This document shows, piece after piece, positions 25,168 through 41,602 of a DNA stretch of 64,000 nucleotides. This DNA comes from Aliiroseovarius sediminilitoris (GTDB lineage Bacteria > Pseudomonadota > Alphaproteobacteria > Rhodobacterales > Rhodobacteraceae). The notes under the pieces were generated by a model. That model did no database searches and was not told the origin of the DNA. It saw nothing but the letters and a program-made list of their open reading frames with translations. The stretch spans positions 124,001 through 188,000 of the forward strand of contig NZ_FOJB01000001.1 of the NCBI RefSeq assembly GCF_900109955.1, read 5' to 3'. Made by a program: the position numbers and the translations under genes. Each line of letters begins with the position of its first letter. The stretch's first letter is position 1.

Positions 25168-26181
25168 ATGAAAATCGTGCGGACGGACAGCGAGCTTCAG
25201 ACGCCGAAACTGGACGCAGACCTGACTGCGGCCGGTCATGACCTGGTGCTGTTGCCGGGTGGGGTTACTGAGGATGTGATGTTGGCGGCAACGCGCGACG
25301 CCGATCTGATCCTGATGTGCTACACGCCGATCACGAAACGGATGATCGGCAACGCGACCCGGCTGAAAGGCATCGTGAAATATGGTGTCGGCATTGACGC
25401 TATCGACATTCCCGCCGCCATCGACGCGGGCGTGGCCGTGGTGAACGTGCCGGAATATGCGGAAGAGACGGTGGCCGAAGGTGCCTTTGCCTTGCTGATC
25501 GCGCTGGCCAAGAAACTGGCCACGCTTAACACCCATATGACATCTCAAGGATGGGCGTGGCCCGAACCCACATGGCTTGGGTCGGACATCGCCGGCAAGA
25601 CCGTCGGGATTGTAGGGCTTGGCAAGATCGGGTGCAGCATGGCGCGCATGGCGGGGCTGGGGTTCCGGGCAAATGTGATCGCCTACAGCCCACATACCAC
25701 GGCGGCGGAAATGGCGAGGCTGAGTGTGACGAAAGTTGACAACCTGCTTGACCTGATGACGCAAAGCGATTTCGTCACGATCCACGCAGTTCTGAACGAT
25801 GACACCCGTGGCATGATTGGCGAGGCGGAGCTGCGGGCGATGAAGCCCTCCGCCTTTCTGATCAATGTATCTCGCGGTGCGATTGTGGACGAAGCTGCCC
25901 TTGTTCGGGCGATCCGCGAGGGCTGGATTTCCGGAGCGGGGTTGGATGTGTTCAGTCAGGAACCCCTGAGCAAAACGGGCCATCCGATGAGCGTGCTGTT
26001 TGACCACCCCAACGTGATCCTGTCGCCACATCTGACCTTCTATACCGAGGACGCAATGCAGCGGTTGGAGGGTGAAACGCTGGAACGGTGTTTCGAGGTG
26101 CTGGAAGGCCGCGACGTGCTGATCAAATCCCGCGACCCACGCCTGCGCGCGCAAACCAAGGGCGTGGTTTTTGCCGATTAG
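25168..26181 (+). CDS. D-isomer-specific 2-hydroxyacid dehydrogenase
   Basis: A 337-residue NAD(P)-dependent enzyme reducing 2-oxoacids. The N-terminal catalytic half includes IVKYGVGIDAIDIPAAIDAG and VVNVPEYAEETVAEGA. The Rossmann motif is GKTVGIVGLGKIGCSMARMA. The catalytic Arg is in NVSRGAIVDEAAL, the Glu in GAGLDVFSQEPL and the His in LSPHLTFYTEDAM, where the usual SPH.A/G is SPHLTFY. The ribosome site AGGA precedes the ATG. It is convergent with the eamA gene of the phosphonate operon and not obviously part of it. The substrate cannot be assigned. Confidence 0.88.
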   Translation: MKIVRTDSELQTPKLDADLTAAGHDLVLLPGGVTEDVMLAATRDADLILMCYTPITKRMIGNATRLKGIVKYGVGIDAIDIPAAIDAGVAVVNVPEYAEETVAEGAFALLIALAKKLATLNTHMTSQGWAWPEPTWLGSDIAGKTVGIVGLGKIGCSMARMAGLGFRANVIAYSPHTTAAEMARLSVTKVDNLLDLMTQSDFVTIHAVLNDDTRGMIGEAELRAMKPSAFLINVSRGAIVDEAALVRAIREGWISGAGLDVFSQEPLSKTGHPMSVLFDHPNVILSPHLTFYTEDAMQRLEGETLERCFEVLEGRDVLIKSRDPRLRAQTKGVVFAD

Positions 26182-26199
26182 GGTGCGGGCTACCGCACC
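26182..26199. terminator. Hairpin between convergent genes
   Basis: A perfect 7-base stem GGTGCGG / CCGCACC with loop GCTA lies across the end of the 2-hydroxyacid dehydrogenase and the eamA stop. There is no T run on either side, so termination is uncertain. Confidence 0.4.
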
Positions 26200-27029
26200 A
26201 AACCGATGAAGATGATCCCGGCCCCGACAGCCGCTGCCGACATAAGACGCCGTGCCCGCGGCCCTTCGCCAAACCAAAGAACGCCGATCAGGGCGGCGAA
26301 GATCACCGAAGTTTCGCGCAGCGCGGACACGATGCCCAGCGGCGCGATTGTCTTGGCATAGAGCACCAGCGCATAGGCGGTGCCAGACACCACACCCCCC
26401 ATGAACCCGATCAAAAGCATTCTGGGCGGTTGCGCGCGCAACCGGTCCAAGCGGGAGGGAAACAGAAACAGAACGATCAGGATTTTCGACAGGAACAGCC
26501 AGCCAATATAGCCAAGCGCGCTGCCGGAAGTTCGCACGCCGAACCCATCGACCAACGTATAGGCTACCACGGTGCCTCCAACCGCCAAGGCCGCGAAAAG
26601 TGCGTTTCTGGAAATCGTCGCGCTGAATGCGCCTTGGGCAAGAAACATGATCCCTGCCGAGACGCTGAAAATGCCGATCCACGCCTGCAAAGGCAGCGTT
26701 TCGCCCACCCAAAACTGCGCGCCTAACGCGACAAGAACCGGGGCGAAGCCGCGCGCCACGGGATAAATGAAGCTCAGATCACCCAGACGATAGGCGACGC
26801 TCAGGAAATAGAAATAAAGCCAGTGAATCGCGACGGACGCGATCATAAAGGGCCATGCTGACGGATCCGGGATGGGCACGAACCCGATGAAGGTCAGGGC
26901 AAAGGCCACATGCCCCAAGGCCATCATGCCCAGCATGATCACCCTGTCCCCTGCCCCTTTTACCAGGGCATTCCACAGCGCGTGCAGGAAAGCAGCCGAC
27001 AAAACAATCAAGGCGACTTGAGCAGTCAT
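26190..27029 (-). CDS. EamA/DMT-family transporter of the phosphonate operon
   Basis: 279 residues with ten hydrophobic helices in two EamA repeats (FLHALWNALVKGAGD at the start; FIYPVARGFAPVLVALGAQF closing the first, APLGIVSALRETSVIFAALIG in the second). DMT-family carriers move small metabolites such as amino acids or amines, often outward. The start ATG at 27029 overlaps the pbfA stop by four bases (ATGA), so it is translationally coupled and the last gene of phnW-phnA-phnY-pbfA-eamA. This placement suggests a link to aminophosphonates or to a product such as acetate or an amine. The substrate is unknown. Confidence 0.85.
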   Translation of the reverse strand: MTAQVALIVLSAAFLHALWNALVKGAGDRVIMLGMMALGHVAFALTFIGFVPIPDPSAWPFMIASVAIHWLYFYFLSVAYRLGDLSFIYPVARGFAPVLVALGAQFWVGETLPLQAWIGIFSVSAGIMFLAQGAFSATISRNALFAALAVGGTVVAYTLVDGFGVRTSGSALGYIGWLFLSKILIVLFLFPSRLDRLRAQPPRMLLIGFMGGVVSGTAYALVLYAKTIAPLGIVSALRETSVIFAALIGVLWFGEGPRARRLMSAAAVGAGIIFIGLVR

Positions 27030-28381
27030 GCCGCGTCTTTGATCGCCGTCACCACAATCTCAAGCGCGCGGTCCAGATCATCGCGCGCGATGGTCAGCGG
27101 GGGCGACAGGGTCAACACACAGCCCTGGCTGATCTTGAAGCTCAGACCCGCTTCGAGACAGGCGTAATAAATCCGCTCTGCCTTCGCATTGCCAGGGGTT
27201 TTCAGGGCGCGGTCTTCGACGATTTCGACACCGAACATCAGACCGCGACCACGAATGTCGCCGACAATCGGGACATCTTGAAGACGATCCTGAAGCACAT
27301 GCATCGCGTAGGTGCCAAGATCGGCGGACCGGGCGACCAGTCCTTCTTCCTCGATGATCTCGATCGTGGTCAGGGCGGCGCGGGATGTGACCGGGTTTTT
27401 TTCGTGCGTGTAATGCCCGATGGCGAAGTCACCGCAGACATCCAGTTCCTGTCGCGCCACGCAGGCCGCGATCGGAAGGATGCCGCCGCCCAGCGCTTTG
27501 CCCATGGTGACGATGTCGGGGATAATCTCGTCATGTTCGAACGCGAACATCTTGCCGGTCTTGCCCAGTCCGGTCGGAATTTCGTCCATGATCAAAAGTG
27601 CGCCGTGTCGGCTGCACGCCTCTCGCACGGTCTTCCAGAAACCGGGGGGCGGAACATACGGCACCGCACGCATGGGTTCCGCGATCACCGCGGCCACGTC
27701 GCCTTCGCGCTCCAGCACATATTCGACCATCCTGGCACAGGCCAATCCGCAGGCGTCGGGGCTTTCGTGATTATACGGGCAGCGATAGCAGGCAAACGGC
27801 GCGACATGTTCGGTGCCCGACAGAAGCGGCCCGGCGATGTGGCTGCGGAACGTCGCCTCGCCCCCCACGCTGGCCGCGCCCATCCCCGCGCCGTGAAACG
27901 CATCCCAGAACGAGATTGTCTTGAACCGCCCCGTCGCGGCACGCGCGATCTTCAACGCCACCTCATTGGCGTCCGACCCGCCAGTGGTGAACAGCACCTT
28001 GCCAAGATCGCCGGGCGCAATCGCGGCCAGTTTCTCGGCCAGTTGAACTGCCGGGTCATTGGTGAACCGCCGTGGTGCGAACGGCAGATCGTCCAACTGC
28101 GCCTTGATCGCGGCAATCAGTTTGGGGTGGCCATAACCGATATGGTGCACGGAATTTCCATGAAAATCCATGAAGCGGCGCCCGTCCATATCCTCGATCC
28201 AGATTCCGTCGGCCTTCGCAATGGTGCTGACACAGGGGCTGGACAGGCTTTGGTGCATGAACGCATCGGCGTCGCGTTTCAACAACGGACCGGATTTGGG
28301 CCCGATGGATTTCTTCAACCAAACCCGCCGTGCGTCCGACGTGTTGGATTCGCCTTCGGTGTGAACGATCTTGGTTGTCAT
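27026..28381 (-). CDS. pbfA: PbfA-like (R)-1-hydroxy-2-aminoethylphosphonate ammonia-lyase (class III aminotransferase fold)
   Basis: A 451-residue PLP enzyme of the class III aminotransferase fold. Motifs: DGRRFMDFHGNSVHHIGYGH, TTGGSDANEVALKIAR, FWDAFHGAGMGA, CYRCPYNHESPDAC, LIMDEIPTGLGKTGKMFAFE and the PLP lysine in TMGKALGGGILPI. Enzymes of this type inside phnW/phnY/phnA operons have been shown to be PbfA, an elimination enzyme that turns (R)-1-hydroxy-2-aminoethylphosphonate into phosphonoacetaldehyde and ammonia. Older annotation would be aminotransferase. The ribosome site GAGG lies upstream, and a hairpin separates it from phnY. The assignment rests on fold plus context; direct homology search is needed to exclude a different transaminase. 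Confidence 0.8.
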   Translation of the reverse strand: MTTKIVHTEGESNTSDARRVWLKKSIGPKSGPLLKRDADAFMHQSLSSPCVSTIAKADGIWIEDMDGRRFMDFHGNSVHHIGYGHPKLIAAIKAQLDDLPFAPRRFTNDPAVQLAEKLAAIAPGDLGKVLFTTGGSDANEVALKIARAATGRFKTISFWDAFHGAGMGAASVGGEATFRSHIAGPLLSGTEHVAPFACYRCPYNHESPDACGLACARMVEYVLEREGDVAAVIAEPMRAVPYVPPPGFWKTVREACSRHGALLIMDEIPTGLGKTGKMFAFEHDEIIPDIVTMGKALGGGILPIAACVARQELDVCGDFAIGHYTHEKNPVTSRAALTTIEIIEEEGLVARSADLGTYAMHVLQDRLQDVPIVGDIRGRGLMFGVEIVEDRALKTPGNAKAERIYYACLEAGLSFKISQGCVLTLSPPLTIARDDLDRALEIVVTAIKDAA

Positions 28382-28400
28382 GGCACCTCAAGAAGAAAAG

Positions 28401-28425
28401 GTGAGACCCGGACACCGGGCCTCAC
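28401..28425 (-). promoter_or_regulatory. Intercistronic hairpin between phnY and pbfA
   Basis: On the minus strand an 11-base stem (one G-T pair) GTGAGGCCCGG / CCGGGTCTCAC with a three-base loop is followed by CTTTTCTTCTT, ahead of the pbfA ribosome site. It may act as a partial terminator or an mRNA processing/stability element, so pbfA-eamA could be made at lower level than phnWAY. Confidence 0.55.
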
Positions 28426-28456
28426 AGACAGGGAGGGGAAATGGTCGCGCACCACC

Positions 28457-29905
28457 CTAGTTCGGCCAGGGCAGCGAATAGGTTTTGACGTTGGTAAAGA
28501 ACTTCATCGCTTCGGTGACGCCTTCCTTGACGGCATTGCCTGAATCCTTGATGCCGCCAAACGGCGATGTTTCGATCCGGTAGCCGGGCTGTTCCCAGAT
28601 GTTGCAGGTCCCCACATCCAGACCGTTGATAAAGGCGATCGCGCGGTTCAGATCATTTGTGCAGACCCCCGAAGACAGGCCGAACTGGGTCGAGTTCGAG
28701 ATCCGCATAACCTCGTCATCATCATCGGGCACACGGACGATTGGTATGATTGGGCCGAAAGTTTCCTCCATCACCAATTCACTGTCATGGGGCACGTGGT
28801 CGACCACAATGGGCGGCAGAAGCGCGCCGTCGCGACCGGGGTGATACAGGATTTCGGCACCATCCTTTTCGGCCATGAAGACGCGTTTTTCGAACAGTTC
28901 TGCCGCCTGCGCATGGATCACGCAACCCAGTTCCGTGTCGGGGTCTTGCGGATCGCCAAACTTGATCTTCTTGGCCTTCTCAAGCACCAGCGGCACGAAC
29001 TTGTCAGCCACGCTTTCCTGCACCAGAATACGTTTGATCGCGGTGCAGCGCTGGCCGGAATTGCCCGTGGCCCCCGCCACCGCAATGGTCGCGGCCTTGT
29101 CCAGATCGACATCGCGCAGATCGTTGCAAACGATCAGAGGATCGTTGCCGCCAAGCTCGAGCGCCTGCCGCTTATAGGACGCCTTTTCAGCGATCATCTT
29201 GCCCACGGGCACGCCGCCGGTGAAGGTGATGATGTCGATGTTTTCGTTGACGATCATCTCCTCTCCGATATCCTGCGGCCAGCCGGTGACAACCTGGAAC
29301 ATCTCGGGCGGCAGGCCCGCTTCGTAAAGGATATCTGCCAGCGCAATCGCGGTCAGCGGCGTCAGCTCGGTTGGCTTGCAAACCATACAATTGTTGGTCG
29401 CAATCGACGGCGCAATCTTGTGGCTGACCATGTTCAGCGGATGGTTGAACGGCGTGATCGCGCTGATCGCCCGCACCGGTTCGCGCTTGGTGAAAATCTT
29501 GCGCTCTTTCCCGTTGTGGGTCAGGTCACACGAGAAAATCTCGCCATCGTCATTCAATGCCTGCGCGGCAGCGAACTGATAGACATCCTGCGCGCGCTTG
29601 GTCTCGTAAATGGCGTGCTGGTGACAAATGCCCAACTCCAGCACCAGCCACTTGGCCAGAAACTCGCGCCGCTCACCGATCAGTTCACCCGCACGTTGCA
29701 GGATTTGCGACCGTTCATAACGCGATAGCTTCGACTTGTAGTTCGCCGCAATGTCAAATGCGCGACGGGCGTGTTCAGCCTGACCGGCGGGCACTGTGCC
29801 GATGACCTCATCAGTATAGGGATACTTCACCGGAACGACATCGTCAGTGAACACGATCTCGCCGCCGATGCGCATACCTTCGTGGCGGATGTGGTCTTTG
29901 CTCAT
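28457..29905 (-). CDS. phnY: Phosphonoacetaldehyde dehydrogenase
   Basis: A 482-residue NAD(P)-dependent aldehyde dehydrogenase that oxidises phosphonoacetaldehyde to phosphonoacetate. The start is the ATG at 29905 ([15 protein letters not shown]) with AAGGATAA eight bases upstream; the ATGs at 29920 and 29947 overlap the end of phnA. Motifs: [35 protein letters not shown], catalytic Glu in [12 protein letters not shown], catalytic Cys in [25 protein letters not shown] and FGGIKDSGN. The specific name rests on sitting between phnA and pbfA/phnW. Regulated with phnW and phnA as one operon. Confidence 0.9.
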
Positions 29906-29921
29906 CACGTTATCCTTCATA

Positions 29922-31166
29922 TCAAAGCGCCGCTGCCTGAGTGGCATAGAAGAACGCGTCGAAGTTCCGCAGCACCGGGCGCTCCGGCAGGGGCAGAACG
30001 CGGTTGCAGATGAACGGCACCTCTTGTTCGGTCAGTCCACCGTGGCTGCGCAAAGGTTCGTTCAGCGCGGCCAGATCGTGACGATGTTCTGATGTTCCGA
30101 TGCAGATGTTTTCGCCCGACACCAGAACGATGTCACCAATCCGATCCGCAGGCAATTCAAAGCGGGCAACCGCCTCGGTGTTGGTCAGCACATCCGTAAT
30201 CCCATCCGTGGCGCGCAGCTTGGCCATGATGTCATCCTGATCGGCACTGTCGGGCAGATAGGCCGTCGCAAACGAACCAAGCGCGCCATGGTGCACAACA
30301 TAAGGGTCGGTGATCGGCAGGATCAGGCGCGCAGCAGCTTCGCCCAGCCATTGGTCAAGCAAGTCTTGCACATAAACGACCGAGGGCGAGCCATCAGCGT
30401 GATGCTTGGGCTTCATACCGTGGTCGGCGGTCACGACAATGGCGGCACCCATCGCATCCAGCTCGGTCAGATACTTGTCGAACATCTCGTAAAACGCTTT
30501 CGCCTGGGCCTGATCGGGGGCGTATTTGTGCTGCACGTAATCGGTGGTGGTCAGATACATCACGTCCGGTTTCCATTCGCGCAGCAGCTTGACGCCGGCG
30601 GCAAAGACAAACTCGGAAAGTTCAGCGGAGTATACCTCGGGTTGGGCCATGCCCAGCCATTTGCTGGCCGCATCCTGACCGTGCTCTGCTTGGGTCGACG
30701 TGTCGGATTTCTCGGCCGAGAAGCACTTGGCGCGGTCCTCATCAAACTTCAACCCCGCCCCCAGAAGGGCACGCAACTTGTCTTTGGCCGTTACCACTGC
30801 GACACGCGCTCCCGCCTCGTAAAACTGTGAAAAGATCGTCGGCGCGCGCAGAAAACGCACGTCGTTCATCATCACCTCTTCTCCGGTCTCCGGTTCATAC
30901 AGGTAATTGCCGCAAATCCCGTGCACGACCGGCGGGCGGCCCGTGGCAATAGACAGGTTGTTAGGGTTGGTAAACGACGGGACCACCGAATGCGCCAGCC
31001 GGTCGGTGCCGGTTTCCCGCATCCGCTTCAAGGTCGGCATCAACCCGTCGGCAATCGCCTTGTCCAGATACTCCGGCTCGCACCCATCAAGGCAGATCGC
31101 AATCGCACAGGTTTTCGGAGCAGGGTAAGCGCGCCCGTTCACGACGACGGGGGATTGAATGGTCAT
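29922..31166 (-). CDS. phnA: Phosphonoacetate hydrolase
   Basis: A 414-residue alkaline-phosphatase-superfamily enzyme that splits the C-P bond of phosphonoacetate to acetate and phosphate. The two-zinc site is visible: Asp in [14 protein letters not shown], the catalytic Thr in [17 protein letters not shown], Asp and His in [13 protein letters not shown], Asp-His in [12 protein letters not shown] and the late His in [13 protein letters not shown]. The [17 protein letters not shown] segment is typical of PhnA. The ribosome site AAGGA precedes the ATG. It lies between phnW and phnY with short gaps. No phnX (phosphonatase) is present, so the PhnW-PhnY-PhnA route is the one encoded. Confidence 0.95.
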
Positions 31167-31186
31167 AGAGTATTCCTTCGTATTTA

Positions 31187-32374
31187 TCAGGCAGCCAGTT
31201 TGGCGCGTTCTTCAAGTGCGATGGCAGGTGGGGCGGCGCTTTCGACGCCCATCTCGTTCAGTGTTTCCTTGGCGGCGGTCACAACCTGCCGCATGACATT
31301 CTCATCCATCTGACCAATGCAGCCGATGCGGAAACTGTCCACGACGGTCAATTTGCCCGGGTAGATGATGAACCCTTTGCCTTTCATAAGCTCATAGAAG
31401 CGGTCAAAGACGAAGTTTTCATCCGCCGGACAGAAGAATGTCACGATGATCGGCGACAACCAGCGATCTTTCAGTAGGGTTTCAAACCCAAGCGCGCGCA
31501 TCCCATCGACCAAAACATCGCGATTGCGCGTATAGCGCCCGCCACGACCGGCAACACCGCCTTCGGCTTCGTGCCCGCGCAACGCCTCAAGGAAGGCGGC
31601 GACCACATGGGTGGGCGGAGTGAACCGCCATTGTCCGGTCTTGTTCATATGCGCCCACTGCGCGTGGACATCCAGGCTCAGCGAATGACTGTTGCCCTTG
31701 GCGGTTTCCAGTTCTGACTTACGCGCGATGATGAAGCCGAAACCCGGCACACCTTCGATGCACTTGTTTGCCGAAGATACCATCGCTTCGTAGCGAATGT
31801 CTGCGACCCTCAACTCGATCGCGCCAAAGGCTGACATCGAGTCGATCAGGAGCTTCCGTCCGGCAGCATATGTTGCTTCCGAGATTTCCTCGACCGGGTT
31901 CAAAATGCCAGAGCTTGTTTCGCAATGGATCGCGACGACATGGGTGATCGCCGGGTCGTCGGCCAATATCTGCGCGACCTCGTCGCCACGCGGCGGCAGG
32001 TAATCGCCCTTATTCAGCACAACATGTTCGCGGCCAAGATACTCCAGCGTCTGCGCCGAGCGCATCCCATAGGCGCCGTTGGCCAACACCAACGCTTTGC
32101 CATCACGCGGAATGAAGGACGCCAGCATCGCTTCGACCGAGAACGAGCCGCTGCCCTGCATGGGCACACAATCGAAGTCATCGGACCCGTCGCCAAGCAA
32201 TGCCAAAAGGCGCGCGCGCATGTCCCGCGTCATGGCGCGGAAGTCATCATCCCAGCTGCCCCAGTCGCGCAGCATCGCTTCTTTCACTGCGTAAGACGTG
32301 GTCAAGGGACCGGGGGTCAGAAGATACGGCTCGCCCAAACGCGGCGGTTCGATTTTGAGGTCTGCGGCGGTCAT
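31187..32374 (-). CDS. phnW: 2-aminoethylphosphonate:pyruvate aminotransferase
   Basis: A 395-residue PLP enzyme of fold type I that moves the amino group of AEP to pyruvate, giving phosphonoacetaldehyde and alanine. The start is the ATG at 32374 with GGAGA upstream; the open frame to 32443 lies in the promoter region. Motifs: PYLLTPGPLTTSYAVKEAML, DWGSWDDDFR, PMQGSGSFSVEAML, VAIHCETSSGILNP, LLIDSMSAFGAIEL and the PLP lysine in SSANKCIEGVPGFGF. A C-terminal extension (VESAAPPAIALEERAKLAA) is mildly unusual. It is the first gene of the operon and divergent from the LysR gene. Confidence 0.95.
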   Translation of the reverse strand: MTAADLKIEPPRLGEPYLLTPGPLTTSYAVKEAMLRDWGSWDDDFRAMTRDMRARLLALLGDGSDDFDCVPMQGSGSFSVEAMLASFIPRDGKALVLANGAYGMRSAQTLEYLGREHVVLNKGDYLPPRGDEVAQILADDPAITHVVAIHCETSSGILNPVEEISEATYAAGRKLLIDSMSAFGAIELRVADIRYEAMVSSANKCIEGVPGFGFIIARKSELETAKGNSHSLSLDVHAQWAHMNKTGQWRFTPPTHVVAAFLEALRGHEAEGGVAGRGGRYTRNRDVLVDGMRALGFETLLKDRWLSPIIVTFFCPADENFVFDRFYELMKGKGFIIYPGKLTVVDSFRIGCIGQMDENVMRQVVTAAKETLNEMGVESAAPPAIALEERAKLAA

Positions 32375-32491
32375 GATCTGTCTCCGAAAGGGGGGAACGC
32401 AAGAACAGCATTGCAGCAGTTTCATCCATATGTGAAATTGCAATTAACGATCAAAGCATAAGTTGTGCCTATACCAGAAATAAGCGGAAAG
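32375..32491. promoter_or_regulatory. Divergent promoter region of phnW and the LysR regulator
   Basis: 117 AT-richer bases between the two start codons. The palindrome ATTGCAAT (in GAAATTGCAATTAAC, about 32436-32443) and the stretch ATAAGTTGTGCCTATACC near 32458-32475 are candidate LysR contact sites, but neither is a confident T-N11-A operator. Confidence 0.45.
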
Positions 32492-33379
32492 ATGATGCGC
32501 CACAGCCAGTTGAAAGCCTTTCACCACGTCGCCCTGTTGGGTGGATTCTCGCGCGCCGCCGAGGCGCTTTTCCTGACCCAGCCCGCAATCTCGGAGCAGG
32601 TAAAAAAACTGGAGCAGGAACACGACACCCTGTTGTTTCACCGCGAACGCAAACGCGTTCGGTTGACCGAAGAAGGTGCACAGCTTTTCCTGTTCACCAA
32701 GCAATATTTCGAGATCGAGCAGAAGATCGAGGATTACATGTCCTCGACCAGTGCCGCGATTGACGGAGAGTTGCGCATCATCGCCGACAGCGCCCACCAT
32801 ATCACCCACTTCCTGGGTGATTTCCGCACCCGCTATCCCAATATCTCGGTCACATTGCGCACCGGGAACACCGAGGAAATTCTGGAAGACCTGCGCGCCT
32901 ACAACGCCGAAATCGGCATCGTCGGAAGCCTGACTCCCGGTGCCGACATGACGGCGCTGAACCTTGGAACAACCAAGATCACAGCCTTTGCTGCGTGCGG
33001 ATCGTTGTTGGCTGCGCGCCCAGCGCTCAGCCTGCAAGACCTGGCGGATCTTCCGCTGATTTTTCGCGAACAGGGGTCCAAGACACGACAGAAGCTGGAG
33101 GAGCGGGCGAAGCAGAAAGGCGTGACCCTGACCCCTGCCATCGTTGCCGAAGGGCGCGAGGCTGTGCGCGAGGTTGTCGCTTCGGGCGCGGGAATCGGGT
33201 TTGTGTCGCAAGCCGAGTACGGGCACGATGACCGGCTGACCCAGATCACGCTTGTCGATGCCGATATCGAGATGAGCGAGACATTGGTGCATTTGGCACA
33301 ACGGAGCGATGTCAAAGTGATCCGCGCCTTCATGGAGTTTGCACGCAAGGCTCAGGACGAAAAAAGCGCCGGCGATTAG
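32492..33379 (+). CDS. LysR-family regulator of the phosphonate operon
   Basis: A 295-residue LysR-type regulator. The start is the ATG at 32492 or 32495 (MMRHSQLKAFHHVALLGGFS), preceded by GGAAAG; the GTG at 32465 is less likely. The N-terminal helix-turn-helix is FSRAAEALFLTQPAISEQVK, followed by the linker helix and a two-lobed effector domain (DGELRIIADSAHHITHFLGD, IVGSLTPGADM, REAVREVVASGAGIGFVS). It is divergent from phnW, the classical arrangement for an activator whose ligand is a pathway compound such as AEP. Homologous LysR genes next to phnW operons have been called AepR-type regulators; the effector here is inferred. Confidence 0.88.
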   Translation: MMRHSQLKAFHHVALLGGFSRAAEALFLTQPAISEQVKKLEQEHDTLLFHRERKRVRLTEEGAQLFLFTKQYFEIEQKIEDYMSSTSAAIDGELRIIADSAHHITHFLGDFRTRYPNISVTLRTGNTEEILEDLRAYNAEIGIVGSLTPGADMTALNLGTTKITAFAACGSLLAARPALSLQDLADLPLIFREQGSKTRQKLEERAKQKGVTLTPAIVAEGREAVREVVASGAGIGFVSQAEYGHDDRLTQITLVDADIEMSETLVHLAQRSDVKVIRAFMEFARKAQDEKSAGD

Positions 33380-33389
33380 GCCAGCGCTT
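33361..33389 (-). terminator. Terminator of the AEP importer operon, inside the LysR 3' end
   Basis: On the minus strand, stem AAGCGCTGGC / GCCGGCGCTT (one mismatch) with loop CTAATC is followed by TTTTTCG. It lies 23 bases past the permease stop and overlaps the last codons of the convergent LysR gene. Confidence 0.6.
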
Positions 33390-33411
33390 CGCGGGCTTCA
33401 CCAGTTGGCAA

Positions 33412-35433
33412 TCAACGTGTCCGCCATGCCTGCGTGCGCGTCAGGACACCCTTGGATACAATCAGGTGAATGATCCGTGCCAGTGCGTTGGTGTAGAAGA
33501 TCATCATCCCCATCGCCGCCGCCGGGGCAATGTCACCCGCATCGTCCATGTTCAACACTGCAATCGACGCCAGCGATGTCTTGGGCGAATACAGGAACAC
33601 CACCGCCGACACCGTCGTCATCGCATTGACGAACAGATAGATCGAGATATCCAGGATCGACGGCAGGCACACCGGCACCGTGACCCGGCTGAACAGTTTC
33701 ATGGTCGGTTGCTTCAGAGATGCCGACACGGACTCAAACTCGCGATCCATCTGTTTCAATGCGGTGACGGCCGTCAGGTGTGAAACGGTGTAGAAATGCG
33801 TCACCGAGCAGATCACCAGAATCGCCATAGTGCCATAGATCGCATTCAGCGGGTTGGACGGGTTGTTGAAAAAGAAGATATACGCCAGGCCCAGCACCAT
33901 GCCCGGAATGGCCATGGGCAACATGGCGAACATCTGAAAGAGTGCGCGACCGGTTCTGAAGCCATTGGTCTTCTCGACCAGATATGCGCCGAAGAACACG
34001 ATGGCCGTTCCGAACACTGCCGTCAGCAGGCCCAGCTTGATCGAGTTGTAATAAGACCCCCAACCGCCGCCATCCATCCGGTCGAATTGATAATTGTTCA
34101 GGCTCAAGCTCAGGTCATAGGGCCAGAACTTGATCAGGGCCGCGAATTGACAGACCGCCAGAATGCCGATGATGAACAGGCCGACAATGGCGCAATAGAT
34201 GAACGAGATCGTGTCAGTACGCTTGTCGGGCTGCGGCTGATAGGGAACCGAGCGCGCCGACAAAAGCGCCACCTGCTTTGACTGCACCAACCGGTCGATG
34301 GCAAAGGCGAAGATCGCGGGGATGACCAACACGACCGACACCACCGCGCCCATTTCAAAGTTCTGCTGGCCGATAACCTGTTTGTAGATATCCACCGCCA
34401 ACACGTTGAACTGACCACCGATCACCTTTGGCAGGCCGAAATCGGTGATCACGAGGTTGAACACCACGAACGCCGCCGAGATCAGGCCATAGCGTGCACC
34501 GGGAATGGTGACAGTCCAGAAGGTGCGCCAACGGGTTGCCCGCAAACTGGCCGCCGCTTCGTAAAGACGCGCATCCGAGATCGCCAACGCGGTCGAGATA
34601 ATCATGAAGGCGTGTGGGAACGTAAAGAATATCGACCCGATGACGATCCCGATCGGGCCATAGATGCTGGCCCCGAACAACAGCTCTTTCATCATGCCCT
34701 GATTGCCGAACAGATAGACCAGCGCGATCCCCGGCAACAGCGATGGCACGAGGATTGGTGCCATGGCGATCAAGCGGAACACGCCTTTGTAACGCATGCA
34801 GCTGCGGTTGAGCGCATAGGCAAACCAGAAGGCCAGCATCACGGTCACAATTGTGCTGACCACTGCGATCCAAAGCGAGTTTTTGATCGAGTTGAACAGC
34901 GCAGGCGTCGAGAAATAATTGATGAAGTTGTCAAACCCGGTTGCTTTAACAGGTCGCAACTGCACCCGGCGGAAGGTGTTGCTATCCAGCGTCACCCAAT
35001 CGGTGCCATCCTGAAGCGTCGATCCGACCAGAAACCGACCGGCCTGGCTGGTGTTTCGGATTTGATACATGACCGGACTGCGGAAACTGAAATCCGGAAA
35101 AAAGCCCGTCACACCAATGCGCCCATCCGATCCGGCGCTTAGATCAAACTCATCAATCGCCCCGGTTTGCGCGTTCAACTCCGCGCCGTTCAAGACGGTG
35201 CCATCAAACACGCCATCCTCGTCGCTGACCTGGAATTCATACTGGGACAGCTCAAAACGATAGGTCGAAAACGATTTTGACAGCATGGCATAAAGCGGAA
35301 ACGCCAAGGTAATGACCAGATACAGGGCAATAACCAGCATTCCGCCGCGCATCATGATGTCATCACGGCTCAGCTTGCCTTTGATGGTCGGGCCACCGGG
35401 CAGTTGTGAAAGATCGGTCGCGTCGGCCATCAA
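33412..35433 (-). CDS. aepW: AEP ABC importer, fused double permease (PhnU2/AepW-like)
   Basis: 673 residues with two complete ABC importer permease units in one chain, about twelve helices. Each unit has a coupling-loop motif: EAAASLRATRWRTFWTVTIP in the first and FESVSASLKQPTMKLFSRVT in the second. Between the first helix and the rest of unit one there is a periplasmic insertion of about 100 residues (FELSQYEFQVSDEDG to LRPVKATGFDNF). Fused permeases of this family are annotated as putative 2-aminoethylphosphonate transporters. The start overlaps the stop of the ATPase gene (ATGATGG), and it is the last gene of the aepX-aepV-aepW operon. Confidence 0.88.
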   Translation of the reverse strand: MMADATDLSQLPGGPTIKGKLSRDDIMMRGGMLVIALYLVITLAFPLYAMLSKSFSTYRFELSQYEFQVSDEDGVFDGTVLNGAELNAQTGAIDEFDLSAGSDGRIGVTGFFPDFSFRSPVMYQIRNTSQAGRFLVGSTLQDGTDWVTLDSNTFRRVQLRPVKATGFDNFINYFSTPALFNSIKNSLWIAVVSTIVTVMLAFWFAYALNRSCMRYKGVFRLIAMAPILVPSLLPGIALVYLFGNQGMMKELLFGASIYGPIGIVIGSIFFTFPHAFMIISTALAISDARLYEAAASLRATRWRTFWTVTIPGARYGLISAAFVVFNLVITDFGLPKVIGGQFNVLAVDIYKQVIGQQNFEMGAVVSVVLVIPAIFAFAIDRLVQSKQVALLSARSVPYQPQPDKRTDTISFIYCAIVGLFIIGILAVCQFAALIKFWPYDLSLSLNNYQFDRMDGGGWGSYYNSIKLGLLTAVFGTAIVFFGAYLVEKTNGFRTGRALFQMFAMLPMAIPGMVLGLAYIFFFNNPSNPLNAIYGTMAILVICSVTHFYTVSHLTAVTALKQMDREFESVSASLKQPTMKLFSRVTVPVCLPSILDISIYLFVNAMTTVSAVVFLYSPKTSLASIAVLNMDDAGDIAPAAAMGMMIFYTNALARIIHLIVSKGVLTRTQAWRTR

Positions 35434-36545
35434 CTTGCCTCCGGGCGGTCGAAAGCCATCAAGCGATCGGTGGGCAATTCGATGACCATCTTGCGACCTT
35501 CTCCCAACCCAAGCCGGCGTACCGCATTGATCGAGAAATCAGCGATCAGTTCGGACTGGCCAAAGCGGTCGTTGCGCAAGCGGCAGCGCCAGAACGATCC
35601 CAGAAACTCCATTTCATGCAGCAACACGTCGATGCAGTTGCGGTTCGGATCTTCTGCGCTATAGCCGTCTTCGTGAGGGATGATATCTTCGGGACGAATG
35701 GCCGCCACAACGACGGTGCCATCTTTGAAGCTGTGTTCATGGCAGGCGAAAGTCTTTTCACCCACGCTGAGCCGGCCACCCTTGGCAACCATTGATTCAA
35801 CCTGGTTCATCTCGCCGATGAAATCAGCAACGAACAGGTTTGCAGGTTCGCGATAAATTTCAGTGGGCGAACCGACCTGTTCGATCACACCATGGTTCAT
35901 CACCACGATCCGGTCGGCCATCGCCAAGGCTTCTTCCTGATCATGCGTCACCATCACTGTGGTCACACCCAGCTTGCGCTGAAGCTCTTTGATCTCGTGA
36001 CGCAGGTGAACGCGCACTTTGGCATCCAGCGCGGAAAGCGGTTCATCCAGCAACAGCAGGCCGGGGTTGGTGGCAATCGCACGGGCCAGCGCAATCCGTT
36101 GTTGTTGCCCGCCGGACAGTTGCGCCGGATATTTGGTGCCCTGCTCGGGCAGCCCGACCAGTTCCAGCAACTCGCTGACCCTGACGGCAATCTCGGATTT
36201 GCTGCGGCCGGTGTTTTCCAGCCCAAAGGCGATATTCTTTTTGATCGTCAGGTTGGGAAACAAGGCATAGGATTGGAAGACGATACCAAAATCCCGCTCG
36301 GACGGCGGCAGGTTCGACACATCCTTGCCGTCCTGCATGACGGTTCCCTTGGTTTGCAGATCAAGCCCTGCGATAGCCCGGAGCAAGGTCGTCTTGCCAC
36401 AGCCTGACGGGCCAAGGAAGCACACGAACTCACCCTCTTTAACGTCCAGAGAGACATCTTTCAGCGCGAGAAACGTGCCGAAAGCTTTCCACAGCTTATC
36501 GATGCTGAGATAGGTTTTCTGGCCTATAGCAGTGTCTTGTATCAC
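35430..36545 (-). CDS. aepV: AEP ABC importer ATPase (PhnT/AepV-like)
   Basis: A 371-residue ABC ATPase. Walker A GPSGCGKTTLL, Q-loop FGIVFQSYALFPNLT, signature QLSGGQQQRIALARAI, Walker B LLLLDEPLSALDAKVR and switch His in VMVTHDQEEALAMAD. The C-terminal ~130 residues form a TOBE-like regulatory domain (VAAIRPEDIIPHE, LLHEMEFLGSFWRCRL). This length and tail are typical of the spermidine/putrescine/iron-type importers that include the AEP systems. It overlaps the permease gene by four bases and follows the binding-protein gene after a hairpin. Confidence 0.9.
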   Translation of the reverse strand: MIQDTAIGQKTYLSIDKLWKAFGTFLALKDVSLDVKEGEFVCFLGPSGCGKTTLLRAIAGLDLQTKGTVMQDGKDVSNLPPSERDFGIVFQSYALFPNLTIKKNIAFGLENTGRSKSEIAVRVSELLELVGLPEQGTKYPAQLSGGQQQRIALARAIATNPGLLLLDEPLSALDAKVRVHLRHEIKELQRKLGVTTVMVTHDQEEALAMADRIVVMNHGVIEQVGSPTEIYREPANLFVADFIGEMNQVESMVAKGGRLSVGEKTFACHEHSFKDGTVVVAAIRPEDIIPHEDGYSAEDPNRNCIDVLLHEMEFLGSFWRCRLRNDRFGQSELIADFSINAVRRLGLGEGRKMVIELPTDRLMAFDRPEAS

Positions 36546-36637
36546 AGGCTTGTCCTTACATATTCCGTTGGCTTACGGCCAAATCTGTCCGGTCGCGACC
36601 GGGCGCGCGTGTCAGGTCTGGAAGGGGCTTGGGTGAA

Positions 36638-36664
36638 AGCGGGGAGCATCAGCTGTCCCCCGCT
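36638..36664 (-). promoter_or_regulatory. Hairpin after aepX
   Basis: A 7-base stem AGCGGGG / CCCCGCT with a 13-base loop lies nine bases past the aepX stop on the minus strand, without a T run. Such hairpins after binding-protein genes usually stabilise the upstream message, giving excess binding protein over the membrane parts. Confidence 0.5.
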
Positions 36665-36672
36665 CACTTAGC

Positions 36673-37695
36673 TTATGACTTGGGTTCGGACTTGCCGTCA
36701 TAGCGGCTCTGCCATTCTTCAAGAATGGCCGCCCGATTGTTGGCTGCAAACTCAAAATCATTGTCGATCATTGCGTCCAGCAGACCCTCGGGGAAGTGCT
36801 CAACCGGCTTGGCGATGCCGGGATAGGCAACAACCGCATAGCCGGTATTGTACATCTCGTTGGCTTCCTTGGTGACGGTGAAATCAACCAGCGCCTGCGC
36901 GGCTTCAAGATTGGCTGTGCCCGCAACGATTGCCGTGGCCTCCATGTCCCAACCGACCCCTTCGGACGGCACGATGATTTCCAGCGGCGCACCGTCGGCT
37001 TTCGACTTGGCACCACGGAAGGCAAACGAGATGCCGATCGGAATTTCACCCGACGCGGCCAGCTTGCAAGGTTTGGAGCCGGAATGGGTATAGCGCGCGA
37101 TGTTTTCATGCAGCGCGTCCATATACTCCCAGCCGCCTTCTTCACCAAACATTTGCAGCCAGCTGGACACGTCCAGGAAACCTGTGCCGGACGAATTTGG
37201 GTTCGGCATGATCACATGACCCGCATACATGGGATCGGTCAGATCCTTCCACGATGTCGGTGGTTTCAGTCCAAGCTTCTCGGCCTCGACGGTGTTATAG
37301 CAGACCGAGGCGACCCAGGCGTCCATGCCAACCCAGGCGGGCGGGTTGTCGCCATCCACGAATTTCGGATCAAGGTTTTCAACACCGGCCGGGGCATAAG
37401 GCTCAAGCATCCCTTCGGATTTCAGCAGCAACAATGACGTGGCTGCCAGACCCCAGATCACGTCTGCTTGCGGGTTGTCACGCTCGGCTAACAGTTTTGC
37501 GGTGATGATCCCGGTGGAATCGCGCACCCAGTTGATCTTGATGTCGGGGTTGCTCTGGTTGAACGTCTCGGCGTAGCGGGCCAGATCTTCGGCTTCTACG
37601 GCAGTATAGACCGTCAGTTCTGTCTCTGCGACCGCAGCGGTAGCAAAGGCGACGCTAGCCAGAAAGGACGTCAGTCTTTTCGCTGTGTGTTTCAT
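36673..37695 (-). CDS. aepX: AEP ABC importer substrate-binding protein (PhnS2/AepX-like)
   Basis: A 340-residue periplasmic protein with a signal peptide (MKHTAKRLTSFLASVAFATAA, cut after VAE-A region near residue 23). The start is the ATG at 37695 with GAGGAG upstream; the open frame to 37764 is not needed. Mature features: ELTVYTAVEAEDLARYAETF, INWVRDSTGIITAKLLAE, ADVIWGLAATSLLLLKSEGM, MPNPNSSGTGFLDVSSWLQM and IGISFAFRGAKSKADGAP. These are typical of the type 2 binding proteins annotated for AEP. It is the first gene of the importer operon; the 303 bases upstream hold its promoter and repeated operator-like motifs. Confidence 0.88.
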   Translation of the reverse strand: MKHTAKRLTSFLASVAFATAAVAETELTVYTAVEAEDLARYAETFNQSNPDIKINWVRDSTGIITAKLLAERDNPQADVIWGLAATSLLLLKSEGMLEPYAPAGVENLDPKFVDGDNPPAWVGMDAWVASVCYNTVEAEKLGLKPPTSWKDLTDPMYAGHVIMPNPNSSGTGFLDVSSWLQMFGEEGGWEYMDALHENIARYTHSGSKPCKLAASGEIPIGISFAFRGAKSKADGAPLEIIVPSEGVGWDMEATAIVAGTANLEAAQALVDFTVTKEANEMYNTGYAVVAYPGIAKPVEHFPEGLLDAMIDNDFEFAANNRAAILEEWQSRYDGKSEPKS

Positions 37696-37876
37696 TATCT
37701 TCTCCTCTGTTGATCTTCTGTTGTCGTGGCGGGAGCGATCAACTTCCACGCCATCCTTTTTCAAGCCAGTTTGGCAGGTTCTGACGACAAGAAAAATCGA
37801 TTATACCTACCATATGATTGGCCTGCCTTATACCATATCCAGCCACTGGGGCTTGGCGCGTGAGCCTCGCTTCGAA

Positions 37877-37939
37877 CCTCGTGACAGCGCAGATCATGCC
37901 CTGCGCCTCGTGACATATGTTTATCAATGTTTTGTGACA
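37877..37939. promoter_or_regulatory. Repeated GTGACA motif upstream of aepX
   Basis: The ten-base CCTCGTGACA occurs at 37877-37886 and again at 37906-37915, 29 bases apart (about three helix turns), and GTGACA recurs at 37934-37939. They lie in the 303-base gap between aepX and the Na/Pi gene, where the aepX promoter must be. Nearer aepX (37801-37848) there are two TATACC...CATAT copies. The binding protein is unknown. Confidence 0.4.
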
Positions 37940-37998
37940 GATCGGGCTGCACCGTCTGGCGCTTGAACTTCCAAGGAGGTCACATTGCTTGTTGCGCA

Positions 37999-39678
37999 TC
38001 AGTCGCTCACCTCCGTGCCATCCAGGTCTTCGATCAAGCGCGTTTCCAAAAGCTGGCCATTCCGATACAGGATCGGATACGCAATCGCGGCGATATGGTT
38101 GTTGATATCACGCAGGGCGCGCAGCGTTTCCAAATGGATATCGCTGGTCTCGAAGCTCTCGACACGACCATTTTGCAGGCGCGCAAGGTGATATTTTCGG
38201 CTTTTGCGCTCGGCCCGTTTGAAATCGGCTTTCTCGACCACAAGCAAACGCGCGCTTTCCAGATCATCCGAGATCAGAACATTGCTGGCCAGATGGAAGT
38301 TCGCGCAGACCGCCTCGTACATCCGCAGAAGTTCGGCCCAGCCTTCCTCTGAAAAACTCAGATGCCCATCCAGTTTTTCTTTCGCAACCGAGGTCAATTT
38401 CATCGCAATCACATCGCCCGCGGCTTCAAGTCGGATGGCATATTCCATCAAACCGCGAACAGATTTGACGTCCGCTTTTGAGTAAGTGTTTTGCGGCATA
38501 GTCGCGACGTAGGATCGGATGCCTGATAGCGTCTCATTCACCTCGTCGTCCTTTGCGCGCGTCGCCCGCAACACCGATGTATCGCTTGCCTCGTAAAGTC
38601 GGGGCACGGTGTGAAACATCCGCTCAACCTGACCGATCATCCGCAGCAACTCCCGTTTCAAACTGGCGATCGCCTGTTGCGGCGTATCGAGCGCGGATGG
38701 GTCCAATGCGCTGACTGGCTGATCTACCCCATTTGCCTGATTGCCCGAATATTTTGGGAACAACCGCACAATCGGGTGTTCAATCAGGCTACAAAATGGC
38801 AGCGCCAGCACCAGAAGCGACAGGTTGAACCCGATATGGGCATAAATCAGCGACTGGCCGGGACCAACAAACAGCAGGTGATCTGGGTCAGCCAACAAAT
38901 TAATGACCAGCAGAACAATCAAGGCCCAACTTCCGCGCAGCATCAGGTTTGCGAACGGAATACGTCGCCCCTCTGACGACATTCCACGGGTCAGCCAGAT
39001 CGGAATGAACGCGCTGCCCATATTTGCCCCCAACAAAAGCGACAGCGCGGCGGCGAAGGGGATTGCGCCGATCTGAACCAGCGTCACACACATCAGGATC
39101 GCGGCAACACTGGAATGCATGATGAATGCCAAGGCGGCACCGACGATGAAAGCTGTCACGAAATCACGCGCCAGATACCCGGACACTGCCGGAAGAAATG
39201 CGCTGTCGCTGATCGGGGCAACGGCATCGCGCAGAAACTGAAGCGAAATCAGGATGAACGCCACACCCATCAGGATACGGCCAAATTGCCGACCTTTCTT
39301 GCTTTCAACCTTCACAAACAACCAGCCGCCAGCGGCCAGCAGCAAGGGCACGAGCCAATCCAGCTTGAACGACAAAATCTGAATGATAAGCGCCGATCCC
39401 AGATCGCCACCCAGCACGATTGCAAGCCCGGTGGGAAAGGCCAGATACCCGCTCGCGGCGAACCCGGTTGCCAACAGCGCCACCGCCGCCGAGCTTTGCA
39501 AGACGATCGCCAGGAAAACGCCGGTCGTGCTGGCGCCGATCAGACTGTGGTTGTCTGTAAGCATCCGCTGGAACGAGGCACCAAAGCTGCGCTCGATCCC
39601 CGTGCGCACCATCCGCACGGCGAACAGCAGCAGCATGGTGGCACCCGCAAGGCTGATCACAAAACTTACGATGGCCAT
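37999..39678 (-). CDS. Na+/phosphate cotransporter family protein with PhoU-like domain
   Basis: A 559-residue protein. The start is the ATG at 39678, one base after the stop of the phosphatase gene. The membrane half (residues 1-~300) has the two inverted Na/Pi repeats with QSS motifs (FLAIVLQSSAAVALLATGFA and FIMHSSVAAILMCVTLVQIG) and LLGANMGSAFIPIWLTRGMS. The rest is a soluble helical PhoU-like domain (REL...GQVERMFHTVPRL, YSKADVKSVRGLMEYAIRLE). Members such as YjbB of Escherichia coli export phosphate. Beside an AEP-degrading pathway that frees phosphate, export of surplus phosphate is a reasonable inference, but uptake cannot be excluded. Confidence 0.85.
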   Translation of the reverse strand: MAIVSFVISLAGATMLLLFAVRMVRTGIERSFGASFQRMLTDNHSLIGASTTGVFLAIVLQSSAAVALLATGFAASGYLAFPTGLAIVLGGDLGSALIIQILSFKLDWLVPLLLAAGGWLFVKVESKKGRQFGRILMGVAFILISLQFLRDAVAPISDSAFLPAVSGYLARDFVTAFIVGAALAFIMHSSVAAILMCVTLVQIGAIPFAAALSLLLGANMGSAFIPIWLTRGMSSEGRRIPFANLMLRGSWALIVLLVINLLADPDHLLFVGPGQSLIYAHIGFNLSLLVLALPFCSLIEHPIVRLFPKYSGNQANGVDQPVSALDPSALDTPQQAIASLKRELLRMIGQVERMFHTVPRLYEASDTSVLRATRAKDDEVNETLSGIRSYVATMPQNTYSKADVKSVRGLMEYAIRLEAAGDVIAMKLTSVAKEKLDGHLSFSEEGWAELLRMYEAVCANFHLASNVLISDDLESARLLVVEKADFKRAERKSRKYHLARLQNGRVESFETSDIHLETLRALRDINNHIAAIAYPILYRNGQLLETRLIEDLDGTEVSD

Positions 39679-39679
39679 G

Positions 39680-40459
39680 CTACGCCCCCACCAGATGCAG
39701 AAGGTCGGCATGAAGTTTGGCAGTTGCGGCTGTCACGACGCCTGACGTGCCAGACGACAGGGACAACGGCTGACCTTCCCAATCCGTGACAATGCCTCCA
39801 GCCGCTTCGATCACTGGAACCAAGGGCAAATAATCATAGGGTTGCAGATCTTCATCCACCACAGCATCGACATGCCCCATGGCAACCAACGCATGAGGAT
39901 AACAATCATAGCCGAACCGACGCGTTTGACCTGCCGACAGAAGACGGTTGAAGGCCTGAGGATGTCTGACAAATATCTTCTCGGCTTCGTTGATATATAA
40001 AATCGCCCGATCCAGCGAAGTCTGTGATGAGACGCGAATCTTGTCGCCGTTCAGCATCGCAGAGCCACCCCGCACACCGATCACCGTTTCGTTCAGCACA
40101 GGCATTCCGATCACGCCAATGGTGGGCACACCCTTGTAAAGTCGCGCCAGAAGAATACCAAAAAGTGGGTGGCCAGACAGGAAAGACCGGGTACCATCGA
40201 TGGGATCTATGCTCCAGACATGGTCACAAGTCAGGTCAGATTGACCGAACTCCTCGCCCAGAATGCCATCTTCGGGAAAGTGCTGATCCAAATAGGCACG
40301 CACGCGCAGTTCGACACTGCGATCTGCCTGGGTGACAGGGCTTTCGTCGTCCTTCAGCTCGATCTCAAGCAGATGGCGAAAATACGCCATCGCAGAACTG
40401 CCTGCCAGATCGGCAATGCGATTGGCATGAACGACGGTTGTTTCAGCCTCCGTCAGCAT
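39680..40459 (-). CDS. Inositol-monophosphatase/HisN-family phosphatase
   Basis: A 259-residue Mg2+-dependent phosphomonoesterase. Metal and catalytic motifs are complete: DESPVTQADRSVE, GILGEEFGQSD, the VWSIDPIDGTRSFLSGHPLF signature and YDYLPLVPVIEAAGGIVTDW. The closest named relatives by motif are histidinol-phosphatase (HisN) and inositol monophosphatase; sequence alone does not decide the substrate. It overlaps the DeoR gene by seven bases and is followed immediately by the Na/Pi transporter, so the three form one operon. A role in releasing phosphate from a phosphorylated intermediate would suit the neighbours but is not shown. Confidence 0.88.
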   Translation of the reverse strand: MLTEAETTVVHANRIADLAGSSAMAYFRHLLEIELKDDESPVTQADRSVELRVRAYLDQHFPEDGILGEEFGQSDLTCDHVWSIDPIDGTRSFLSGHPLFGILLARLYKGVPTIGVIGMPVLNETVIGVRGGSAMLNGDKIRVSSQTSLDRAILYINEAEKIFVRHPQAFNRLLSAGQTRRFGYDCYPHALVAMGHVDAVVDEDLQPYDYLPLVPVIEAAGGIVTDWEGQPLSLSSGTSGVVTAATAKLHADLLHLVGA

Positions 40460-41247
40460 TTCACGACCTCCGGATGTACCGCCTTAACGCTGATGTCCCA
40501 ATTGTCCAACTGCCGCGCCAATTCATGCTCCGGCACCTGATCTACGATCATCCGATCAATGCGTTGCGGCGTGAATCCCTGATGAGGTGCTTTCGATCCG
40601 AATTTATGATGAGTCATTGCCACAACTGCCGCATCCGAGCAGTCGATCACCACGGACGCCAGATCCGCTTCCGCCCTGTTCAAATAAAGAAAGCCGCGCT
40701 TGGTGTGCAACGCATCGGCGCTAAGAACGGACAGATCATAACAGAACTGTCGCGCCTGTTGTTCAGCCACGTGACCGAATGCGCCCAGTTCGTCGACATG
40801 CATTTCCCCGCCCAAAAGGTAGACGTGATTGTCGTTGTGGCCCACCAAGGTTTGCGCGACCTGAACCGAGTTTGTCGTTATTGAAAGGCTGCCACGGGTG
40901 CGCAATTCCTCTGCGACGAATGCGGTGGTGCTACCGACATCCAGAAACAACGTCATGCCGTCTTCAATCTCGCGCACAAGGGTTTTCGCCACAGCGCGCT
41001 TCTCTCGCGCATACTGCTCGATCCGCTGGAAAAAGCTCGGGTCGCTCTGGGTTCCGACAAGATAGGCGCCGCCATGAACGCGCGCGACCGAGCCCGCCTT
41101 TGACAACGCCTTGATTGTGCGGCGTACGGTTTCTTCCGAGACATTCAGCGCAGTGGCAAGGTCCGAATTCTTGGCAAACCCGCCGACCCTGCGAATGGCG
41201 TCGAGCAATTCCAGCTCTCGGTAGGAGTGTTTTGTCTCGCCTGCCAT
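40453..41247 (-). CDS. DeoR-family transcriptional regulator
   Basis: A 264-residue regulator. The start is the ATG at 41247 (MAGETKHSYRELELLDAIRR) with GGGGGC upstream; a TTG at 41259 is less likely. The winged helix-turn-helix is GGFAKNSDLATALNVSEETV followed by RRTIKALSKAGSVARVHGGA, the DeoR signature. The sugar-phosphate-type sensor domain shows FLDVGSTTAFVAEEL, ITTNSVQVAQTLV, VYLLGGEM and CSDAAVVAMTHHKFG. Regulators of this family usually respond to phosphorylated sugars or polyols. It is cotranscribed with the phosphatase and the Na/Pi transporter and probably represses its own operon. Confidence 0.9.
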   Translation of the reverse strand: MAGETKHSYRELELLDAIRRVGGFAKNSDLATALNVSEETVRRTIKALSKAGSVARVHGGAYLVGTQSDPSFFQRIEQYAREKRAVAKTLVREIEDGMTLFLDVGSTTAFVAEELRTRGSLSITTNSVQVAQTLVGHNDNHVYLLGGEMHVDELGAFGHVAEQQARQFCYDLSVLSADALHTKRGFLYLNRAEADLASVVIDCSDAAVVAMTHHKFGSKAPHQGFTPQRIDRMIVDQVPEHELARQLDNWDISVKAVHPEVVKC

Positions 41248-41602
41248 ATCAGCCCCCAAGCATGTGGCTTAACCAAATCCTTTGGTTTTCCACATTTTCA
41301 CACAATTTTGTGGATTTTTGCCCGAATCAAGACAAAATACAAGCCAAAACCAAAATTCTAGCCAACAGCCGTGAACTTGTTGTGCCGAGTGTTGAAAGCG
41401 GATGTGATCTACGCGTCGCGTGCCAACGCAACCTGACTATCTTTGTCGGTCCGCCAACCGGTTCTGAGGACCAGGGACATCGGCGGATAGACTTGGTGCA
41501 CGGTGACGGGCGGTCAAATGTTTGAAGCGCGTGATGAACGGGTTGTAACCGACCTCCACCACGTGTTGTTTCTTGGCGGAGTTTTCATCCCGGAGCGGCG
41601 GG
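41248..41602. other. 355-base intergenic region with the DeoR operon promoter
   Basis: No gene is seen. The half nearest deoR is AT-rich and contains inverted repeats (CCAAATCCTTTGG at about 41273-41285 and TCCACA...TGTGGA) and several AAAACCAAAAT-like stretches, as expected for a regulated promoter. The half nearest flgI has ordinary composition and no clear terminator. Confidence 0.55.
41289..41314. promoter_or_regulatory. Candidate DeoR operator
   Basis: An inverted repeat TCCACA (41289-41294) / TGTGGA (41309-41314) with a 14-base AT-rich spacer, 42 bases upstream of the deoR start. The position fits autoregulation. No protein-DNA evidence can be read from sequence. Confidence 0.4.

Follow-up and report, generated by a model that had tools for sequence, protein, structure and literature searches.

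A LysR-associated AEP and hydroxy-AEP catabolic cluster in Aliiroseovarius sediminilitoris and a neighbouring DeoR–IMPase–NaPi unit that probably vents phosphate

The window, as the whole 64,000-nucleotide stretch of DNA analysed here is called, belongs to a 3.4 Mb genome and carries, side by side, predicted genes for the uptake and breakdown of AEP and hydroxy-AEP (HAEP), two types of regulator and a candidate phosphate exporter (Table 1). An earlier note on this DNA, made from the sequence, listed twelve of these genes, counting the importer as three, and all of them were found at the place and on the strand given there. The extent of 26190-41247 that it assigned to the locus holds for the genes listed, but the pbfF-like gene just outside this range also belongs to the locus. 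The annotated start of phnY was kept, with a longer open reading frame beginning at 29947, and the likely start of phnW was chosen by the coding model and the position of a conserved upstream box, within a frame that extends up to 32443. The intergenic gaps along phnW-phnA-phnY-pbfA-eamA (+20, +1, +75, and -4 bp) and along deoR-IMPase-NaPi (-7 and +1 bp) are short and fit two operons, while the aepX start lies 303 bp past NaPi, which leaves space for a separate aepX promoter.

Table 1. Genes and predicted regulatory sites of the AEP/HAEP locus and its neighbours, in window coordinates.
Feature	Position	Strand	Family assignment and remarks
pbfF-like gene	25168..26181	+	D-2-hydroxyacid dehydrogenase family, PF02826; candidate NAD-dependent HAEP racemase (S-HAEP to R-HAEP)
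eamA (phn_DUF6-like), DMT-superfamily carrier	26190..27029	-	PF00892; TIGR03340 below cut-off
pbfA	27026..28381	-	NF049939, 679.6 bits (cut-off 525)
phnY, phosphonoacetaldehyde dehydrogenase	28457..29920	-	TIGR03250, 742 bits (cut-off 636)
phnA, phosphonoacetate hydrolase	29922..31166	-	TIGR02335, 504 bits (cut-off 408)
phnW, AEP:pyruvate aminotransferase	31187..32374	-	TIGR02326, 477 bits (cut-off 401)
Predicted AepR (LysR) box ATCGTTAATTGCAATTTCACATAT	32428..32451	-	Divergent phnW/lysR promoter region, 34.6 bits
LysR-type regulator (aepR-like)	32492..33379	+	TIGR03339 phn_lysR, below cut-off
aepW (PhnU2), fused two-permease ABC subunit	33412..35433	-	TIGR03262, 784 bits (cut-off 593)
aepV (PhnT2), ABC ATPase	35430..36545	-	TIGR03265, 529 bits (cut-off 458)
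aepX (PhnS2), substrate-binding protein	36673..37695	-	TIGR03261, 514 bits (cut-off 393)
Weak AepR-like box GTAGGTATAATCGATTTTTCTTGT	37787..37810	-	91 bp ahead of the aepX start
NaPi, candidate phosphate exporter; YjbB-like Na/Pi carrier, PhoU domain at the C terminus	37999..39678	-	PF02690 (twice) and PF01895
Inositol-monophosphatase/HisN-like phosphatase (IMPase)	39680..40459	-	PF00459; TIGR02067 below cut-off
DeoR-type protein, putative regulator of the IMPase-NaPi unit	40453..41247	-	PF00455 and PF08220
Pair of DeoR-type boxes, TTTGTGG-like repeats	41288..41325	.	20.5 and 18.7 bits, ahead of deoR

For related genomes, genes were predicted with a simple coding model that had been trained on the window. 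The PhnW proteins of Aliiroseovarius species are 88-95% identical and the gene order is the same in several of them, a conservation of neighbourhood for which the earlier note had suggested a search and which shows that the cluster is not a chance array. The description of the locus as an island in the strict, horizontally acquired sense was rejected: the GC content stays between 0.56 and 0.61 with no step across the region, and the flgI flank is common to loci L004, L007, and L010, so that the locus is a gene cluster with no visible recent insertion.

Seven proteins, namely PhnW, PhnY, PhnA, PbfA, and the three importer subunits AepX, AepV, and AepW (PhnS2, PhnT2, and PhnU2 in NCBIfam), score above the curated equivalog cut-offs, and neither the PLP enzyme, previously described as a PbfA-like lyase, nor the importer falls into a different family. 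PhnW, PhnY, and PhnA are encoded next to each other in one cluster. PhnA aligns over nearly its full length with PDB 3szy (E 2e-214), with the Asp-, His-, and Thr-bearing motifs identical, and PhnY likewise with PDB 4i3t over nearly its full length (E 4e-226). PhnJ, the marker of C-P lyase, was not found in the genome. It is established for these families that PhnW and PbfA yield phosphonoacetaldehyde, which PhnY and PhnA convert to acetate and phosphate. The enzyme identities proposed here rest on curated models.

The earlier note counted two entry reactions; there are probably three, the PbfF-like gene having been overlooked. This gene converges with eamA, tail to tail with a gap of 8 bp, and its product is 62-89% identical to phn-adjacent copies from Rhodobacterales and Mesorhizobium and about 36% identical to two copies outside phn clusters. 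This comparison, made with copies other than the assayed M. plurifarium enzyme, together with the PF02826 family places the protein in the PbfF group of HAEP racemases. With a PbfF-group gene present, S-HAEP is probably a third substrate, and the likely substrates are AEP, R-HAEP, and S-HAEP. In the pathway proposed, PhnW would transaminate AEP to phosphonoacetaldehyde, with the nitrogen leaving as alanine, PbfF would racemise S-HAEP to R-HAEP, and PbfA would strip ammonia from R-HAEP to give phosphonoacetaldehyde again, which PhnY would oxidise to phosphonoacetate and PhnA would cleave to acetate and phosphate.

The importer genes lie next to phnW, and the AepXVW-like ABC importer read from the sequence is borne out in all three parts; PhnS2/T2/U2 and AepXVW are equated here through the match of genus and the description of the cluster rather than by direct sequence comparison. 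AepXVW would import AEP and probably HAEP. In AepW a stretch of about 110 additional residues separates the first membrane helix from the conserved permease part, the model match starting at residue 164; relatives of the protein are equally long, so this N-terminal stretch is common in the group. The EamA protein reaches 153.7 bits with TIGR03340 (phn_DUF6), under the cut-off of 288, and is thus homologous only, an EamA/DMT carrier by Pfam. The eamA gene overlaps pbfA by 4 bp. The protein is not AEP-specific, since EamA also adjoins NaPi outside phn clusters, for example in L094-L105, where phnWAY is missing. EamA and NaPi co-occur above expectation in 57 phn loci (Fisher p about 0.001, uncorrected for relatedness). 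Taken together, the catabolic enzymes, the importer, and the regulator support the assignment of the locus as an AEP and HAEP catabolic cluster with its own importer and LysR regulator.

The LysR-type protein scores 287.8 bits with TIGR03339, short of the cut-off of 341.1, and keeps the divergent position and the box seen in AEP clusters. Motif discovery (EM) on phnW/lysR promoter regions gave a single 24-bp box, ATtGaaAaTtaCaATTTtACATAT, in 87 of 90 phnW upstreams; the motif was trained on these same upstreams, and the count shows conservation rather than an independent test. In a pattern scan of the whole genome, the box between phnW and lysR was the sole exact match of the degenerate pattern. 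The weaker AepR-like box ahead of aepX has counterparts elsewhere: 27 of 38 aepX upstreams score higher than 95% of shuffled versions of the same sequence, compared with 20 of 200 control upstreams. No AepR box lies ahead of deoR, pbfF, or eamA in this window. The term "binding site" was not met in the AepR papers found, and the predicted AepR box may therefore be undescribed.

The deoR, IMPase, and NaPi genes have a different predicted operator. Of 31 upstreams of deoR genes linked to NaPi, the training set of a DeoR motif, 27 contain this motif, and none of 89 phnW upstreams does; the two best sites of the motif in the window are the pair ahead of deoR. Not every Aliiroseovarius locus carries the unit: it occurs in this window and in L004, L007, and L010, whereas L008 has only DeoR and L006 does without it. 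The unit is therefore a companion of the AEP cluster rather than a constant member. The earlier reading of the whole locus as a self-contained AEP module therefore suits the catabolic core, the importer, and LysR, but not the DeoR-IMPase-NaPi unit, with its own operator, its uneven presence, and its occurrence in operons without phnWAY. In our proposal the unit would most likely vent surplus intracellular phosphate through the YjbB-like carrier, and DeoR would control it; this control, the phosphate export, and the signals are what we infer. The IMPase was also considered as the housekeeping histidinol-phosphatase HisN, a candidate that was rejected as its TIGR02067 score of 246.9 bits misses the cut-off of 275.15 and another gene of the genome, at 274.8 bits, is the better candidate. 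In L028, L126, and L127, a DeoR gene, next to one for an 820-residue dimethylglycine-dehydrogenase-like protein, stands directly before aepX.

We lean towards seeing DeoR-(IMPase)-NaPi as a portable phosphate-venting module with regulation of its own, one that alphaproteobacterial organophosphorus operons (phnWAY, phosphonate monoester hydrolase) supplying carbon or nitrogen have recruited repeatedly and that would be the missing exporter of phosphate-insensitive marine phosphonate mineralisation. A somewhat less probable, though serious, alternative is that the unit primarily serves the use of phosphoesters or phosphonate esters, with IMPase hydrolysing, DeoR sensing, and NaPi removing phosphate, and that its AEP neighbourhood reflects a shared substrate class such as AEP-bearing esters. 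In many Rhodobacterales the same DeoR-NaPi pair, with the same DeoR box, lies opposite genes for phosphonate monoester hydrolases (PDB 4upk being the best match among solved structures) accompanied by ABC importers, mostly without phnWAY; L116 carries the full DeoR-IMPase-NaPi set opposite such a hydrolase, and DeoR regulators often sense phosphorylated sugars. Against this, neither such a hydrolase nor a second importer lies beside the unit in this window, and IMPase is missing from most linked loci, being found in 12 of 57.

In L116 (11389-12918), L123, L129, L130, L131, and others, the phosphonate monoester hydrolase shares a divergent promoter and a DeoR-type box with DeoR-NaPi; it lies beside the phn LysR in four loci, with an oligopeptide-type ABC importer in several. 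That setting hints at a role of the hydrolase in organophosphorus ester catabolism. In L108, L109, L117, and L118, NaPi belongs to a conserved operon whose other genes encode a TRAP transporter, aldehyde and iron-type alcohol dehydrogenases, a glutamine-synthetase-like protein, and in some cases EamA; the operon possibly serves another nitrogen-bearing organophosphorus substrate.

The venting reading depends on the carrier itself. NaPi contains two Na_Pi_cotrans stretches followed by a PhoU domain, the same domain order as YjbB of E. coli and Salmonella, and is 32% identical to E. coli YjbB over 536 aa, end to end including the PhoU part; no solved structure matched it by sequence. What sets it apart from YjbB is its place in one predicted operon with DeoR and IMPase, next to phosphonate genes. 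YjbB expressed in Salmonella behaves as a Pi exporter according to the text of PMC10055408. In a survey of 296 genomes of Rhodobacterales, tabulated by hand, phnA was present in 35 and NaPi in 117. Of the 35 phnA-bearing genomes, 19 (15 of 24 genera) have NaPi no more than 15 kb away from phnA, against fewer than one such linkage expected from random placement; this is an association that says nothing on the direction of transport. NaPi is not required: in 16 of the 35 genomes it is not linked to phnA, and 33 of 57 full-length loci have no NaPi near phnW. Its arrangement varies, with the gene ahead of aepX, behind pbfA or eamA, or opposite LysR, and in eleven loci of Mesorhizobium, Aminobacter, and related genera it stands between LysR and phnW with an AepR box in front, the upstreams of these eleven having been part of the AepR training set. 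When 70 NaPi proteins were placed in a quick tree, the phn-linked label was seen to change nine times, with at least six changes forced by well-supported branches; the changes may be losses or gains, and because several branches are long, single placements are uncertain.

On this evidence phosphate export by NaPi is likely. That NaPi would instead be a sodium-coupled phosphate importer, placed here by chance or for general phosphorus supply, with the DeoR unit unrelated to AEP, we consider unlikely: Na/Pi carriers do include importers, the unit is preceded in this window by a DeoR box of its own and not by an AepR box, and it also occurs in operons without phnWAY, but the linkage to phnA across 15 genera, the fact that in Mesorhizobium and Aminobacter NaPi directly follows the AepR box, and the full-length kinship with YjbB all speak against it.

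As for the catabolic cluster, the LysR protein would bind the divergent phnW/lysR box and probably also the weaker box before aepX, and would switch the genes on when a substrate or intermediate is present. The window holds four consensus-like Pho boxes where 4.5 are expected, a chance level, and none at three or fewer mismatches lies within 26190-41247, in agreement with the earlier note, although boxes that diverge from the E. coli-type consensus may escape such a scan; the sigma-54 promoter consensus matched less often than expected by chance. The note's further remark that phoB is lacking is right for the window but not for the genome, where the gene lies at G000:C1:1833367. A LysR box together with no excess of Pho boxes fits substrate induction through LysR, which the text of PMC8316502 proposes for Stappia and that of PMC9311074 shows in part for AepR of P. 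putida. PhoB-mediated phosphate-starvation control, as in other phosphonate operons, is very improbable, for although phoB exists in the genome and phnWX and aepXVW of P. putida BIRD-1 need PhoBR for P-source use (PMC9311074), the absence of a Pho-box excess, the strong LysR box, and the use of AEP as N source by Stappia and Aliiroseovarius (PMC8316502) argue otherwise. By its predicted sites the cluster is probably substrate-induced rather than Pho-controlled, and the independence from phosphate starvation supposed earlier is supported as probable, the published growth of Aliiroseovarius being in agreement.

The combination of genes is not new. The text of Murphy et al. 2021 (PMC8316502) describes aepXVW-phnWAY-LysR clusters of marine Alphaproteobacteria, with Aliiroseovarius crassostreae and A. 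sediminilitoris among the carriers and with the same importer, three enzymes, and single LysR as here; the same study covers PbfA, reports that two Aliiroseovarius species grow with AEP as their only N or P source, and also that cells using AEP as N source export Pi. The catabolic core is thus already known, its importer, pathway, LysR regulator, and phosphate-insensitive use having been published together in 2021. Both pbfA (2021) and pbfF (2025) are likewise published: Zangelmi et al. 2021 (PMC8154272) describe pbfA next to phnWAY, as in Roseovarius nubinhibens, feeding R-HAEP into phosphonoacetaldehyde, with no important difference from the case here as far as that text goes, and Ruffolo et al. 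2025 (PMC12366243) describe PbfF in the same family, PF02826, and the same cluster type, with A. crassostreae listed as a pbfA/pbfF carrier, whereas here the gene converges on the main operon from outside and has no AepR box. The text of Murphy et al. names no exporter and does not mention a DeoR-IMPase-NaPi unit. The recurrent linkage of NaPi, the DeoR unit, and both boxes were not found in the text of the papers searched, nor was any paper on a phosphate exporter in phosphonate clusters.

The picture as a whole, a chromosomal, LysR-controlled AEP/HAEP catabolic cluster of a roseobacter accompanied by a separate DeoR-IMPase-NaPi unit as probable vent, is one that we hold with good confidence. 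AEP mineralisation with phosphate release is proposed to be a notable source of regenerated phosphate in the sea, and the protein that lets phosphate out in this process is not named in the text of the papers found. The less familiar part of the locus is the separately controlled neighbour set, probably for disposing of leftover phosphate, and the recurrent candidate gene and the clear predicted AepR box open both the phosphate exit and the regulation of AEP use to single-gene experiments.
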